From positions 434,001 to 498,000 of the forward strand of contig NZ_FUZQ01000002.1 of assembly GCF_900167525.1 (NCBI RefSeq): DNA of 64,000 bases, in the 5' to 3' direction. The notes below the pieces were generated by a model. The model was given only the letters and a program-made list of their open reading frames with translations, ran no database searches and was not told the DNA's origin. Positions 11,845 through 56,217 of this stretch are shown here, piece after piece; position 1 is the first letter of the stretch, and each line of letters begins with the position of its first letter. Source of the DNA: Krasilnikoviella flava. Its GTDB lineage: Bacteria; Actinomycetota; Actinomycetes; Actinomycetales; Cellulomonadaceae. The position numbers and the translations under genes were made by a program.

Positions 11845-12926
11845 CCGACGCCGGCGGACGGGCTGCCGCGCGTCCTCGGTCGCGCCGCCCGTCCATGGCC
11901 GACGTCGCCGCCGTCGCGGGGGTCTCCCACCAGACGGTCTCCCGGGTGCTGAACGAGCACCCGAGCGTGCGCAGCGAGACCCGCGAGCGGGTGCTGGACG
12001 CCATCGCGAGCCTGGGCTACCGGCGCAACAGCGCCGCACGGGCGCTCGCCACCGCGCGCTCCGCGACCCTCGGGGTCGTGACGACGGGCTCGGCGCTGTT
12101 CGGGCCCACCAGCACGCTCATCGCGATCGAGGGTGCGGCGCGCGACCAGGGCTACTACGTGTCGGTCGCGACGCTGCGGACGTACGACGCCGAGGCGATG
12201 CACGAGGCCCTGGAGCACTTCATGGACCAAGGCGTGGAGGCGATCGTCGTCATCGCGCCGCAGGACGACGTGGCGGCGGCGGTGGAGTCGTTCCGTGCGC
12301 CCGTGCCGGTGCTGGTGGTCGCCGCGCTGGAGAGGCTGCCGAGGGACGTGGGCACCACCGCGGCCGCCGGCCCGACGACGCTGTCGCTCGCCGTCGACCA
12401 GCGCGCCGGGGCGCGCGCGGCGACGGAGCACCTGCTCGACCTCGGCCACGGCGACGTGCTGCACGTGGCCGGGCCGCAGGACTGGTTCGACGCCCGCGAG
12501 CGCGCCGCCGGCTGGCGTGAGGCGCTCGAGGCGCGCGGGCTCGCGCCGACCCGCCCGCGGTACTGCTCCTGGTCGGCGGAGGACGGGTACACCGCGGGCC
12601 GCGACCTCGCCGAGGCCGTCGTCGCCCACGAGGGGCCGACGGCGGTGTTCGCGGGGAACGACCAGCTCGCGCTCGGGATGCTGCGGGCCTTCTGGGAGCG
12701 CGGGCTCTCGGTGCCGGACGACGTGTCCGTGGTGGGGTTCGACGACGTGGCGGGCGCGGCGTACTTCGTGCCCCCGCTGACCACGGTGCGTCAGCCCTTC
12801 GGGGTGCTGGGGGAGCGCAGCGTGGCGATGGTGGTGGCGGCCCTCGCCGGCGCGCGCGTGCCGACGGAGCGCATCGCGCCCCGGCTCGTGGTGCGGTCGA
12901 GCACGGCGGCGCCGCCGGTCCGCTGA
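11841..12926 (+). CDS. LacI-family regulator next to the secreted GH43 gene
   Basis: 361 residues, ATG overlapping the GNAT stop. The HTH (residues ~20-65) has recognition helix SHQTVSRVLN and hinge helix YRRNSAARALA. The periplasmic-binding-like effector domain follows, with DQRAGARAATEHLLDLGH, FAGNDQLALGML and VPDDVSVVGFDDVA. Such proteins repress carbohydrate genes and respond to sugars or oligosaccharides. Directly downstream is a GH43 gene whose leader holds the best copy of the TCTACAACGATGTAGA palindrome. It is one candidate reader of that site; the LacI at 43605 is the other. Confidence 0.88.
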   Translation: MTDAGGRAAARPRSRRPSMADVAAVAGVSHQTVSRVLNEHPSVRSETRERVLDAIASLGYRRNSAARALATARSATLGVVTTGSALFGPTSTLIAIEGAARDQGYYVSVATLRTYDAEAMHEALEHFMDQGVEAIVVIAPQDDVAAAVESFRAPVPVLVVAALERLPRDVGTTAAAGPTTLSLAVDQRAGARAATEHLLDLGHGDVLHVAGPQDWFDARERAAGWREALEARGLAPTRPRYCSWSAEDGYTAGRDLAEAVVAHEGPTAVFAGNDQLALGMLRAFWERGLSVPDDVSVVGFDDVAGAAYFVPPLTTVRQPFGVLGERSVAMVVAALAGARVPTERIAPRLVVRSSTAAPPVR

Positions 12927-12998: not shown

Positions 12999-13007
12999 GG
13001 AGCCATG

Positions 13008-14435
13008 ATGCACAGATCTCTCAGGCGGGTCCGGACCGCGGCCGCCGGGGCGCTGACGGCGGCGCTGCTGGCGACGTCGCTGGTCGCGGCCACGACCGTC
13101 GGCCCGGCCTTCGGCGCGGCCGAACGCGCCCGGCCGGTCACTGCTCCGGTCGGCGGCCTCTCGGTGACCGGCGAGACCTCGCCGGTGCACGACCCGGCGC
13201 TCGTCGTCGGCGACGACGGCACCTGGCGTGTGTACACCACGGGCCTGGTGAACCGGGAGAACGGTGGCACGATCCAGATGTGGTCGAGCCACGACGAGGG
13301 CGTGACCTGGGCCTACGACGGCACCGTCTGGGACGAGATCCCGGCGTGGATCGACGAGCGCTTCGCCGGGCCGGACGGCGCGGGCGTGCTGCCCGACAAC
13401 CTGTGGGCGCCCGAGGTCTACGAGCACGACGGCACGTACTACCTCTACTACTCGGCGTCGCGCTTCGGCACGAACACGTCGGTCACCGCCCTGGCCACCA
13501 ACACGACGCTCGACCCGGACGACCCCGACTACGCGTGGGTCGACCAGGGTCCCGTGATCAGCTCGCCGCACGACATCGCCGGCGGGAAGACGTTCAACGC
13601 CATCGACGCGGGCATCGTCGAGGGGGCGGACGGAACCCCGTACATGGCGATCGGCTCCTACTGGTACGGCATCTTCCTGGTCGAGCTCGAGTGGCCGGGC
13701 GGCAAGCTCGCCGACGGCGCGCTGGAGAACGCCACGCACCTCGTGGACCGCAAGATGCCGGGCAACCCGGTCGAGGCGCCGTACATCACCGAGCGCGACG
13801 GCTGGTACTACCTGTTCGTGTCGTTCGACGCCTGCTGCCGGGGCCTGGACAGCACCTATCAGGTGGCGGTCGGTCGGTCGCGGGACGTCGCGGGGCCCTA
13901 TCTCGACCAGGACGGGAAGGATCTGGCCGACGGTGGCGGCACGGTGCTGCTCTCCTCGCACGGGGCGGTCGTGGGGCCGGGCGGCCAGTCGGTGTCCGAC
14001 GGCGTCCTCGCGTTCCACTTCTACGACGGCGCGAATGCCGAGATCCCGGGCTTCCCGACGCTCGGCCTGCAGCGCCTGGACTGGGAGGACGGCTGGCCCG
14101 TGGTGGACCAGACCGTCGAGGAGCCGGTCGTGACACAGGGGCCGCGCGACGCGACGGTCCGGGGGAACCGCCCGGCGACGTTCGAGGTCCGGGTGTCCGG
14201 CACGCCGGCGCCGGTCGTGACGTGGGAGGTCTCCGACGACGACGGCGCGACCTGGACGGCGGCCCCCGTCGCCGCCGCGCGCGCCGTCGACGGCACCGCG
14301 AGCTGGACCGTCAAGCACGCCGGCCGCGACCGGGACGGGCTGCTCGTGCGCGCCGTCGTCGCGAACGCCCACGGCGCCGTGCGCAGCGAGCCCGCCCGGC
14401 TCGACGTCCTCCGCCCGGGCGGCCCCGCGAGGTAG
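13008..14435 (+). CDS. Secreted GH43 arabinanase/arabinofuranosidase with Ig-like C-terminus
   Basis: 475 residues from ATG 13008 (AGGAG five bases upstream; ATG 13005 is the alternative). A signal peptide covers residues ~1-40 (LTAALLATSLVAATTVGPAFGA). The five-bladed GH43 domain has candidate catalytic Asp62 (HDPALVVG), Asp200 (NAIDAGIVE) and Glu256 (PVEAPYI). A C-terminal Ig-like domain (~375-470, GNRPATFEVRVSGTPAPVV) probably aids attachment. Layout fits endo-1,5-alpha-L-arabinanase or exo-arabinosidase. Its stop codon lies inside the first core of the 20-bp-period repeat array. The upstream palindrome ties it to the arabinan regulon. Confidence 0.87.
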   Translation: MHRSLRRVRTAAAGALTAALLATSLVAATTVGPAFGAAERARPVTAPVGGLSVTGETSPVHDPALVVGDDGTWRVYTTGLVNRENGGTIQMWSSHDEGVTWAYDGTVWDEIPAWIDERFAGPDGAGVLPDNLWAPEVYEHDGTYYLYYSASRFGTNTSVTALATNTTLDPDDPDYAWVDQGPVISSPHDIAGGKTFNAIDAGIVEGADGTPYMAIGSYWYGIFLVELEWPGGKLADGALENATHLVDRKMPGNPVEAPYITERDGWYYLFVSFDACCRGLDSTYQVAVGRSRDVAGPYLDQDGKDLADGGGTVLLSSHGAVVGPGGQSVSDGVLAFHFYDGANAEIPGFPTLGLQRLDWEDGWPVVDQTVEEPVVTQGPRDATVRGNRPATFEVRVSGTPAPVVTWEVSDDDGATWTAAPVAAARAVDGTASWTVKHAGRDRDGLLVRAVVANAHGAVRSEPARLDVLRPGGPAR

Positions 14436-14596
14436 TCGAGATCCCCGCGAGGTAGTTCGAGACGTCACGAGGTAGTTCAGAATGCGGTGAGGTAGTTCTG
14501 AGTTCCGCGAGGTAGTCGGAAAGCTCGCGAGGTAGTCCGGGCCCGAACTACCTCGCGGGGGTCTCGACTACCTCGCGGGGATCTGAACTACCTCGC
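14427..14596. repeat. Nine 10-bp cores at exact 20-bp period with an orientation flip
   Basis: GCGAGGTAGT or a one-base variant occurs at 14427, 14447, 14467, 14487, 14507 and 14527. Its reverse complement ACTACCTCGC then occurs at 14547, 14567 and 14587. Every step is exactly 20 bases, with 10-base variable spacers. Bases 14427-14456 are complementary to 14547-14576 (29 of 30) and also to 14567-14596 (28 of 30), so alternative long stems can form. The first core supplies the GH43 stop codon. It may be a complex terminator, a protein-binding array, or an element made by repeated duplication. No known family is recognised. Confidence 0.85.
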
Positions 14597-14599
14597 AGG

Positions 14600-14629
14600 T
14601 TGGGTCCTCCCGCATGTGAGCGCTAACAT
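14600..14629 (+). promoter_or_regulatory. Promoter and operator of the arabinose catabolic operon
   Basis: TTGGGT (14600-14605), an 18-base spacer and TAACAT (14624-14629) form a promoter. ATGTGAGCGCTAACAT (14614-14629) is a near-palindrome covering the -10 box. It shares TGTKA-N4-TMACA with the two sites before the YtfQ-type gene, suggesting one LacI-family AraR-like repressor for both. Confidence 0.65.
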
Positions 14630-14716
14630 CGATCAGACACCCGGGTCGTGCGCCGGCTGGAAGCTGCGCGACGACGGAACTCGACGACGCCCCGTGCGGG
14701 CGGGGACGGAGCAACG

Positions 14717-16348
14717 ATGGCGGAGCAGGGCGCGCGGCCGGACGGCGGGGCCGGCATCCGGGCGGCGATCACCGCCGGGGAGGCGACGCTGGGCATCGAG
14801 CTCGGATCCACCAACATCAAGGCGTGCCTGATCGGCCCCGACCACACGCCGATCGCGAGCGGCTCGCACGGGTGGGAGAACGAGCTGGTCGACGGCGTGT
14901 GGACCTACTCGCTCGACACGGTGCACGCGGGGCTGCAGGGTGCCTATGCCGCGCTCGTGGCCGACGTCGAGGAGCGCCACGGCGTGCGTCCCACGACCTA
15001 CGCGGCCCTCGGCGTCTCCGCCATGATGCACGGCTACCTGCCGTTCGACGCCGACGGCGGGCTGCTGGTGCCGTTCCGGACCTGGCGCAACACCAGCACC
15101 GGGCCGGCGGCCACGGAGCTGTCCGCGCTGTTCGGGCACAACATCCCGCTGCGCTGGTCCATCGCGCACCTCTACCAGGCGATCCTCGACGACGAGCCGC
15201 ACGTGCCACAGGTGGCGTCGTTCACCACGCTCGCCGGCTACGTGCACCGCGCCCTGACCGGGCGGCACGTGCTCGGCGTCGGCGACGCGTCGGGCATGTT
15301 CCCGATCGACCCCGCCACGGGCGACTACGACGCCCGGATGCTCGAGCAGTTCCGGCACCTGGCCGCCGCCAAGCGGCCGGGCCTGCACGTGGAGGGCCTG
15401 CTGCCGCAGGTGCTCACCGCGGGCGAGGACGCCGGCCGGCTCACCCCCGAGGGCGCCGCGCTGCTCGACCCCACGGGCACCCTGCTGCCGGGAGTGCTGC
15501 TCTGCCCGCCCGAGGGCGACGCCGGGACCGGCATGGTCGCCACCGGCTCGGTGGCGCCGCGCACCGGCAACATCAGCGCGGGCACGTCGATCTTCGCCAT
15601 GGTCGTGCTCGAGCAGCCGCTGACCAGCGTGCACCACGAGCTCGACCTGGTCACCACCCCTGCCGGCGACCTCGTGGCGATGGTGCACTGCAACAACGGC
15701 GCCAGCGAGCTCGATGCGTGGGCCGGCGTCTTCGGCCAGTTCGCGGCCGCGCTCGGGGCGCCGGCCGAGCCGGACGCCGTCTTCGGCGCGTTGTTCCGGG
15801 CGGCGCTCGACGGCGCGTCCGACGGCGGCGGGCTGCTCGCCTACAACTACCTCGCCGGCGAGCCGATCACCGGTCTCGACGAGGGCCGCCCGCTCGTGGT
15901 GCGCACCCCCGACAGCCGCCTCACGCTGGCGAACTTCGCGCGCACGCAGCTCTACGGCGTGTTCGGCACCCTCGCCCTCGGCATGCGCGTGCTGCACGGC
16001 GAGGGCGTCGCGATCGACACGATGTTCGCGCACGGCGGCCTGTTCAAGACGGCGGGCGTGGCGCAGCGCCTGCTCGCCGGCGCGATCGACGCCCCGGTGG
16101 CCGTCGGTCAGACCGCGGGGGAGGGCGGGGCCTGGGGAATCGCCGTCCTCGCGGCCTACGCCGCTGCCCGCGCCGAGTCGGGCGACGCCGCGCCCGCCCT
16201 CGACACCTACCTGACCGAGCGCGTCTTCGCCGGCGTCGAGCTCGACGTCGCCGAGCCGGACGCCGCCGACGTGGCGGGCTTCGCCGCCTACCTGGAGCGG
16301 TACTCCGCCGGCCTCGCGGTCGAGCGGGCCGCCACCCAGGCGCTGTGA
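14717..16348 (+). CDS. FGGY-family kinase, probable L-ribulokinase
   Basis: 543 residues. FGGY features: the phosphate-binding LGIELGSTNIKACLIG near residue 24, MMHGYLPFD and FRTWRNTST in the sugar-binding domain, TGNISAGTSIFAM, and a C-terminal GGLFKTAGVAQRLLAGA. The sequence is closer in style to xylulokinase-like FGGY proteins than to classical AraB. Its position directly before araD and araA, with no AraB in the window, argues that it phosphorylates L-ribulose to L-ribulose 5-phosphate. The start at ATG 14717 has only a weak GGGACGGAG upstream. The araD gene follows 50 bases later. Confidence 0.83.
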   Translation: MAEQGARPDGGAGIRAAITAGEATLGIELGSTNIKACLIGPDHTPIASGSHGWENELVDGVWTYSLDTVHAGLQGAYAALVADVEERHGVRPTTYAALGVSAMMHGYLPFDADGGLLVPFRTWRNTSTGPAATELSALFGHNIPLRWSIAHLYQAILDDEPHVPQVASFTTLAGYVHRALTGRHVLGVGDASGMFPIDPATGDYDARMLEQFRHLAAAKRPGLHVEGLLPQVLTAGEDAGRLTPEGAALLDPTGTLLPGVLLCPPEGDAGTGMVATGSVAPRTGNISAGTSIFAMVVLEQPLTSVHHELDLVTTPAGDLVAMVHCNNGASELDAWAGVFGQFAAALGAPAEPDAVFGALFRAALDGASDGGGLLAYNYLAGEPITGLDEGRPLVVRTPDSRLTLANFARTQLYGVFGTLALGMRVLHGEGVAIDTMFAHGGLFKTAGVAQRLLAGAIDAPVAVGQTAGEGGAWGIAVLAAYAAARAESGDAAPALDTYLTERVFAGVELDVAEPDAADVAGFAAYLERYSAGLAVERAATQAL

Positions 16349-56151: not shown

Positions 56152-56217
56152 CGCGTGTCGTGCCGAGATAGAGCGACACGCGCTCTATCTCGGCACGACA
56201 CGCGCTCTATCTCGGCA
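56152..56217 (+). terminator. Hairpin plus 22-bp tandem element after folD
   Basis: Arms 56152-56175 and 56181-56204 are perfectly complementary (24 bp) with loop ACACG. The 3' arm belongs to a 22-bp tandem: ACACGCGCTCTATCTCGGCA occurs at 56176-56195 and again at 56198-56217. The second copy ends next to the PPK2 start region. The hairpin should terminate the glyA-folD transcript; the extra copy offers an alternative 3' arm. Confidence 0.75.

Follow-up and report, generated by a model that had tools for sequence, protein, structure and literature searches.

Short, oriented sequence words repeated at a strict step behind stop codons form a genome-wide family of arrays in the actinobacterial genome that holds the window (the whole 64,000-nucleotide stretch of DNA analysed here), and relatives in the genus build the same architecture from other words, namely GAGGTAGG, GAGGTAGC, GAGTCAG and, at 22 bp, GAGATAG. 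Comparing these genomes, we tentatively read the elements as polar site arrays that would be recognised by a co-evolving trans-acting factor, probably in transcript 3′-end formation. Termination or insulation would, we infer, be the most natural job for sites at gene ends.

The window array and its genomic family

An earlier note on this DNA had described nine cores with a 20-bp period and a change of orientation, and every feature that it listed is present in the sequence. The core starts lie at 14427 + 20n (n = 0-8), in a single 20-bp register that is kept across the flip at 14547. The complementarity of 14427-14456 had been given exactly, at 29/30 positions to 14547-14576 and 28/30 to 14567-14596, and the first core does provide the stop codon of the arabinanase-like gene, its TAG at 14433-14435 closing the open reading frame 13005-14435. 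GCGAGGTAGT is exact in 7/9 cores, those at 14467 and 14487 having one mismatch each, outside GAGGTAGT. The features of the window are as follows.

11895-12926: LacI-family gene.
13005..14435, + strand: upstream gene of the GH43 family (arabinanase-like) with a weak Ig-like match (open reading frame, domain match).
14427..14536, + strand: sense arm, six GAGGTAGT units at exact 20-bp steps (sequence).
14433..14435, + strand: stop TAG of the upstream gene, inside the first core (sequence, open reading frame).
14537..14546, no strand: centre CCGGGCCCGA, 10 bp separating the last + core from the first - core (sequence).
14547..14596, - strand: reverse arm, three ACTACCTC units at 20-bp steps (sequence).
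14615..14629, no strand: TGTGAGCGCTAACAT motif before araB, outside the array (sequence, relatives).
14717..16348, + strand: downstream gene, an FGGY kinase (araB-like), first of the arabinose genes (open reading frame, domain match).
56163..56216, no strand: second array type, one GAGATAG (+) and two CTATCTC (-) at 20- and 22-bp steps.

Sixty first-order Markov sequences of 64 kb yielded zero GAGGTAG core pairs at 20 bp. A simple scan of 14350-14900 found neither sigma-70 promoters nor T-run terminators, and nothing in window positions 14000-15000 scored above the Rfam gathering score (best 26 bits vs 108 needed). Past the array, the genes run FGGY kinase (araB-like), aldolase class II gene, araA. 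The array ends 18 bp before the TGTGAGCGCTAACAT motif at 14615-14629, which we take to resemble a LacI-family operator and which shows at most one change in any of 15 relatives inspected upstream of araB. Nothing suggests that the array is tied to the arabinose operon: similar arrays follow many other genes, and by eye only G010 among 15 relatives has one upstream of araB. The second array type lies 40 bp behind a + gene, and its word is that of the arrays in the relative G009.

Across the window's genome (G000, 4.85 Mb, 10 contigs), GAGGTAGT-N12-GAGGTAGT occurs 80 times forward and 68 times in reverse (148 pairs), and the same pattern read backwards gave 0 and 0. The junction from a + to a - core has 36 matches, some of them overlapping within one array. 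We fetched 36 stretches of G000 holding 41 arrays with at least two exact cores; all array sets used here are partial and their loci were chosen for holding arrays, examples of unfetched G000 arrays being those at C10 530955, 865264 and 903587. Two-armed arrays of this sample all run + then -; the one exception, L048, has mismatched outer cores that overlap a called gene in part. The step is strict, with 128/134 chained steps at 20 bp and 19 and 21 bp rare. Register across the flip is kept in the window and is not a general rule, since G000 centre gaps measure 4, 5, 9, 10, 11, 14, 19, 20 and 29-47 bp. Among these centres are palindromes (TCGA and others resembling GGTCTGGTCC or TCGTGACATCGCGTCACGA) as well as longer hairpins. 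The 12-bp spacers have a strong consensus and are more alike within than between arrays; spacers and centres reappear at different loci, and the consensus of the 20-bp unit is not a palindrome. At three loci (L029 4973-5088, L061 5011-5088 and L095 5045-5179) a long near-perfect hairpin occupies the array centre, a terminator-like stem that the arms lengthen or flank.

Gene contexts were assigned with a purpose-written codon-usage gene caller rather than from annotation; it called 93.6% of the window coding. Seven genomes gave 117 array rows holding three or more exact cores: 55 two-sided arrays, 46 one-sided arrays and 16 rows that form eight split pairs, the members of each lying under 300 bp apart and running + then -. 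With split pairs merged, 46/109 arrays are one-armed by exact cores. The first arm is + in 51/55 two-sided arrays, and three of the four that begin with a - core have that core inside or adjoining a called gene. Two-sided or split arrays (n = 63) occupy 37 convergent, 26 tandem and 0 divergent gaps; the array-free gaps of at least 60 bp at G000 loci (n = 125) are 7 convergent, 69 tandem and 49 divergent. Among 130 gene ends with a sense arm behind them, the first core starts within 15 bp of the gene end in 86, and a core supplies the TAG stop in 40. One-sided arrays are sense in 18 vs antisense in 3 tandem contexts, and in convergent contexts the nearer gene end is sense in 14 and antisense in 6; four lie in divergent gaps and one has no assigned context. 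GAGGTAG arms mostly point the same way as the gene that they follow, and orientation is looser in G003 and G008. We considered whether orientation is a by-product of supplying stop codons but did not adopt this view, because GAGTCAG, which holds the stop TGA on its other strand, forms some antisense and many sense arms.

At one orthologous locus, five genomes have a + arm and a - arm about 1.1-1.2 kb apart around one gene (L043 4440-5668, L089 3757-5094, L091 4407-5746, L150 7864-9217 and L101 242-1502). The enclosed gene is moderately conserved, at roughly 54-59% identity in most species pairs. In G010 (L090 4074-4738), a gene of about 160 amino acids likewise stands between + and - arms, and its homologue adjoins a GAGTCAG array in G003 (L224). 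A general rule of cassettes, with arms + then - around one gene, was discarded, as several of its cases are one orthologous locus.

Words, species and conserved loci

The search of relatives for cores at a 20-bp period, as the earlier note had advised, recovered exact GAGGTAGT pairs in 6/18 genus genomes and other words elsewhere. Requiring three cores and allowing three mismatches raised this to 12/18, because relatives use another base and spacer start. The 10-bp core described for the window stands there, but the core common to most relatives is GAGGTAG, and the base after it is a species dialect. The words are listed below by genome.

G001 and G005: GAGGTAGGCAAC.
G015-G017: GAGGTAGCGC.
G004: GAGGTAG with A or C next.
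G010: GAGGTAGTAC.
G003, G008 and G013: GAGTCAG.
G009 (80-kb sample): GAGATAGAG at 22 bp.
G011: GAGGTAG at 20 bp and GAGATAG at 22 bp.
G000: a few GAGATAG arrays beside GAGGTAG.

All words share the skeleton CGAG-N-Y-AG. GAGTCAG triples number 242 in G003, 229 in G008 and 55 in G013, with zero in the other 15 genus genomes; outside the genus there was one, in one further genome of 220 searched. The eighth base is near-uniform, being G in 100/102 distinct units of G005, C in 21/21 of G003 and T in 109/112 of G000, the last figure partly reflecting selection, as those loci were picked with GAGGTAGT. The words are not strictly exclusive: G003 has three GAGGTAGT pairs, and both G011 and G000 hold GAGATAG arrays. 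Overall, 15/18 genus genomes carry arrays and three (G002, G006 and G014) are seemingly without. None of these array kinds was found in G006 or G014 and one degenerate triple in G002, whose whole-genome search covered two words only; GAGATAG arrays were not counted genome-wide. The distribution of the words agrees for the most part with the clades of an araB protein tree, several of whose forks are weak. There are apparent losses, and GAGTCAG appears in two places, in G003 with G008 and separately in G013 beside G001 and G005.

Conservation was the ground on which the earlier note had let the array stand or fall, and it was borne out in part: the arrays keep their place behind the gene and, within a species, their step, but not their number of units, which varies freely. 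Flanking proteins of 137 array loci in 16 genomes (some fetches overlapping; cut-off above 58% identity) link 26 orthologous locus groups that carry arrays in at least two genomes through at least one flanking protein, two of these groups merging neighbouring loci. GAGGTAG and GAGTCAG are mixed in 8/26 groups, and both flanking genes match in 7/8 of those. One group, again with both flanks matching, sets a 20-bp G000 array against a 22-bp G011 array (L039, L082). Similarly, 4/6 distinct fetched G013 loci have an array of another word in G000, G001, G005 or G017, a count made with only part of each genome's arrays at hand and no formal null. By our estimate, arrays occupy no more than a few per cent of gene ends, so that chance would give few shared loci. 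These groups of mixed word and step indicate that loci were kept while the word and period of their arrays changed. Synteny between G011 contig 16 and G000 contig 9, suggested by a common spacer, gave no blastn hit and was dropped.

The locus of one gene (L094), compared in 17 genomes, has an array behind the stop codon in eight, spelled GAGGTAG in G012, G007, G005, G001 and G017 and GAGTCAG in G003, G008 and G013. By eye, the last core of these arrays, except in G017, lies a few bases before a similar stem of the GTCCACA-TGTGGAC type. G004 has one core there and the other eight genomes none, most of them with a similar stem alone. Behind L094-type genes of G015 and G004 (L178 and L179), the stem region contains TTGTCCACA or TTATCCACA, which to us is reminiscent of a DnaA box. 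At the araB locus, the G000 and G010 arrays differ by eye in spacers and unit number; G011 shares the upstream gene but shows a plain long hairpin there instead of an array.

Beyond the genus, the count of matches carries no weight. The pattern CGAGNYAG, searched in 396 genomes of the order at 19-22 bp steps only, occurs in 20 of them, 6 in the genus and 14 outside; its backwards control occurs in 19, 18 of them outside the genus, so the outside count does not exceed the control and proves nothing there. Several of the other matches look by eye like ordinary repeats. Two-armed arrays with 19-bp steps were recognised by eye in two genomes of the same family (G068, G169) and two of another (G427, G501), and G142, of another genus in the same family, has GAGGTAGTAC arrays at 20-21 bp. 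Spread outside the family of the genus amounts to only a few cases seen by eye. The sole phage match, 40 bp long at E 5e-3 and of little weight, was to a Gordonia phage, and a plasmid search returned zero matches. A viral-contig match (L025 10750-10800), with five TGCGAGGTAG copies at 10-bp steps, was judged an unrelated 10-bp tandem repeat; its word is that of the arrays, repeated at half their step, which may be coincidence.

A proposed reader in trans and its alternatives

The word is conserved, the step strict and the arrays polar; they stand behind the stop codon, and fixed loci were respelled in a coordinated way. Together, these traits suggest a reader acting in trans. Such a factor would read the word itself, given that many separate loci have changed spelling together, and it may bind cooperatively along one face of the DNA, 20-22 bp being about two helical turns. 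The outcome would be a defined transcript end, reached through a polar roadblock or an aid to termination, and a convergent gene pair would have an arm for each gene and be insulated both ways. Alternatively, the factor may bind nascent RNA. The earlier note had offered both a cooperative protein-binding array and a switching RNA terminator. A bound factor appears to fit the comparative data best, with the 20-bp step strict; a terminator is plausible too, as two-sided arrays fold very well, but there was no sign of switching. The factor reading is weakened by the fact that two-sided arrays outfold core-keeping shuffles, as a pure RNA hairpin would, that a hairpin behind the array is not general and that the words are not strictly exclusive. 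The three genomes seemingly without arrays, the looser orientation in G003 and G008 and the two places of GAGTCAG on the tree weaken it further.

The arrays are clearly shaped by copying from locus to locus as well, and since spacers and centres recur, the uniformity of the word could come from such copying rather than from selection. This gives some weight to an explanation that we nevertheless find unlikely, in which the arrays are REP/MITE-like repeats, mobile but non-autonomous or else gene-converting, that come to rest at gene ends because they do least harm there, each species amplifying its own lineage. Spacers and centres common to several loci, the species-specific consensus and the uneven presence within the genus would all follow, and because three successive 20-bp units give TAG in all three frames, a sense insertion behind or into a gene end would be harmless. 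Copying does not readily explain, however, why the same gene ends keep arrays across species despite differing word and period, and the unit is non-palindromic. The RAYT transposase (Y1_Tnp, PF01797), the one transposase searched, was found in 0/18 genus genomes, with the control positive in 5/14 known genomes.

A purely structural RNA, whose arms would pair into one long hairpin and, unaided by a dedicated factor, either terminate transcription intrinsically in both directions or stabilise the mRNA 3′ end, seems to us a rather poor prospect, although folding of two-sided arrays speaks for it. The folding energy of the window array is -130.7 kcal/mol (z -9.8). Against shuffles that preserve the cores, the folding of 31 two-sided arrays is far stronger (mean z -3.98; 29 below -1). 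Many centres are palindromic with differing sequences, the arrays favour convergent locations, and at the araB locus, by eye, G011 has a plain hairpin where G000 and G010 have the array. Against this, the 46/109 one-armed arrays largely overlap a set of 60 arms that fold no better than shuffles (mean z -0.20 overall and -0.12 in the 44 that lack an opposing arm within 300 bp), although some one-armed arrays, such as L029, may have degenerate opposite arms. Some loci have a hairpin behind the array, but the 100 nt past one-sided arms (mean z -0.89, 14/60 below -2) are as structured as those past array-free gene ends (mean z -0.90, 7/43 below -2), so by this measure a trailing hairpin is not general. 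Nested opposing spacers match no better (7.19/12, n = 36) than non-nested ones (7.17/12, n = 76), both lying above the 6.33/12 found between arrays, which fits local duplication more than selected pairing. Finally, pairing alone needs no common word at all loci of a genome.

We give little credence to a recognition watermark like the DNA uptake sequences (DUS), in which the word would mark a cell's own DNA for uptake or recombination. Dialects that largely track clades around the common skeleton recall the Neisseriaceae, whose DUS dialects, according to PMC3630211, also share a core, follow phylogeny, occur as inverted pairs at terminators and mostly contain a stop codon. Outside arrays, GAGGTAGT is in mild excess in G000, at 21 vs a mean of 3.1 for permuted motifs. 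Yet DUS copies number thousands per genome according to the same paper, whereas CGAGGTAG outside arrays occurs 53 times in about 441 kb of G000, 50 of them coding, and 45 times in about 246 kb of G005 vs 19 in 220 kb of G006, G014 and G002. Functionless tandem repeats, arising by slippage at non-coding gene ends, would account for free variation in unit number and for spacers more alike within than between arrays, but with a nearly invariant core among varying spacers, a strict step and loci kept through a coordinated change of spelling, they are the least credible explanation of all.

Returning to the trans-acting factor, a wider claim is conceivable, if doubtful: that the arrays represent a bacterial class of factor-dependent polar 3′-end elements, in which the specificity of a rapidly evolving DNA- or RNA-binding reader shifted several times within the genus, the arrays were re-spelled accordingly at the same loci and one clade was re-spaced between 20 and 22 bp. 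If so, the two-armed CGAG-N-Y-AG arrays of other genera would be further dialects. If a factor does read the arrays, they would constitute a sequence-specific system of 3′-end formation or termination whose natural dialects are ready-made swap experiments, and we know of no such system in bacteria. Even without a factor, coordinated word replacement at conserved loci would be an unusual form of concerted evolution, testable across species.

Comparison with known systems

REP/BIME elements with their RAYT share several traits with the arrays, being genome-wide, present in many copies, extragenic, downstream of genes and arranged in inverted pairs, and the arrays contain GTAG. They differ in that no RAYT was found in the genus and the arrays have a non-palindromic unit (a REP is a palindrome of 20-40 bp), keep a strict tandem step and change word between species at conserved loci. 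We do not assign the arrays to REP/RAYT: extragenic copies lie downstream of genes, but the enzyme was not found and the unit lacks the palindrome. GTAG repeats are reported from Proteobacteria, Cyanobacteria, Chloroflexi and the PVC group in PMC3733652, and the string "actinobacter" is absent from its main text. DUS resemble the arrays in their short word, common core and dialects, which for the arrays largely track phylogeny on one araB tree; the array word, however, is clustered at a fixed step and hardly dispersed, single cores being only mildly in excess and nearly all coding, and we do not assign the arrays to DUS. Among the matches listed by a search of the open-access PMC literature, which leaves subscription journals and preprints outside its scope, none describes these arrays, and the kind is apparently undescribed so far.

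CRISPR arrays also combine short repeats, variable spacers and a fixed step. The arrays described here differ in their 12-bp spacers with a strong consensus, where CRISPR spacers have none, in their short word, their many loci and their flip of orientation, and we do not assign them to CRISPR. Intrinsic terminators likewise stand behind stop codons, and two-sided arrays fold strongly, some arrays enclosing or preceding a hairpin; one-sided arrays, in contrast, are unstructured, and one word serves all loci. An analogy, and only that, can be drawn with the terminator arrays of eukaryotic rDNA (Sal-box/TTF-I and Reb1-type roadblocks), tandem oriented sites that a DNA-binding factor reads: in both cases, short sites stand in tandem and in one orientation behind a transcription unit.
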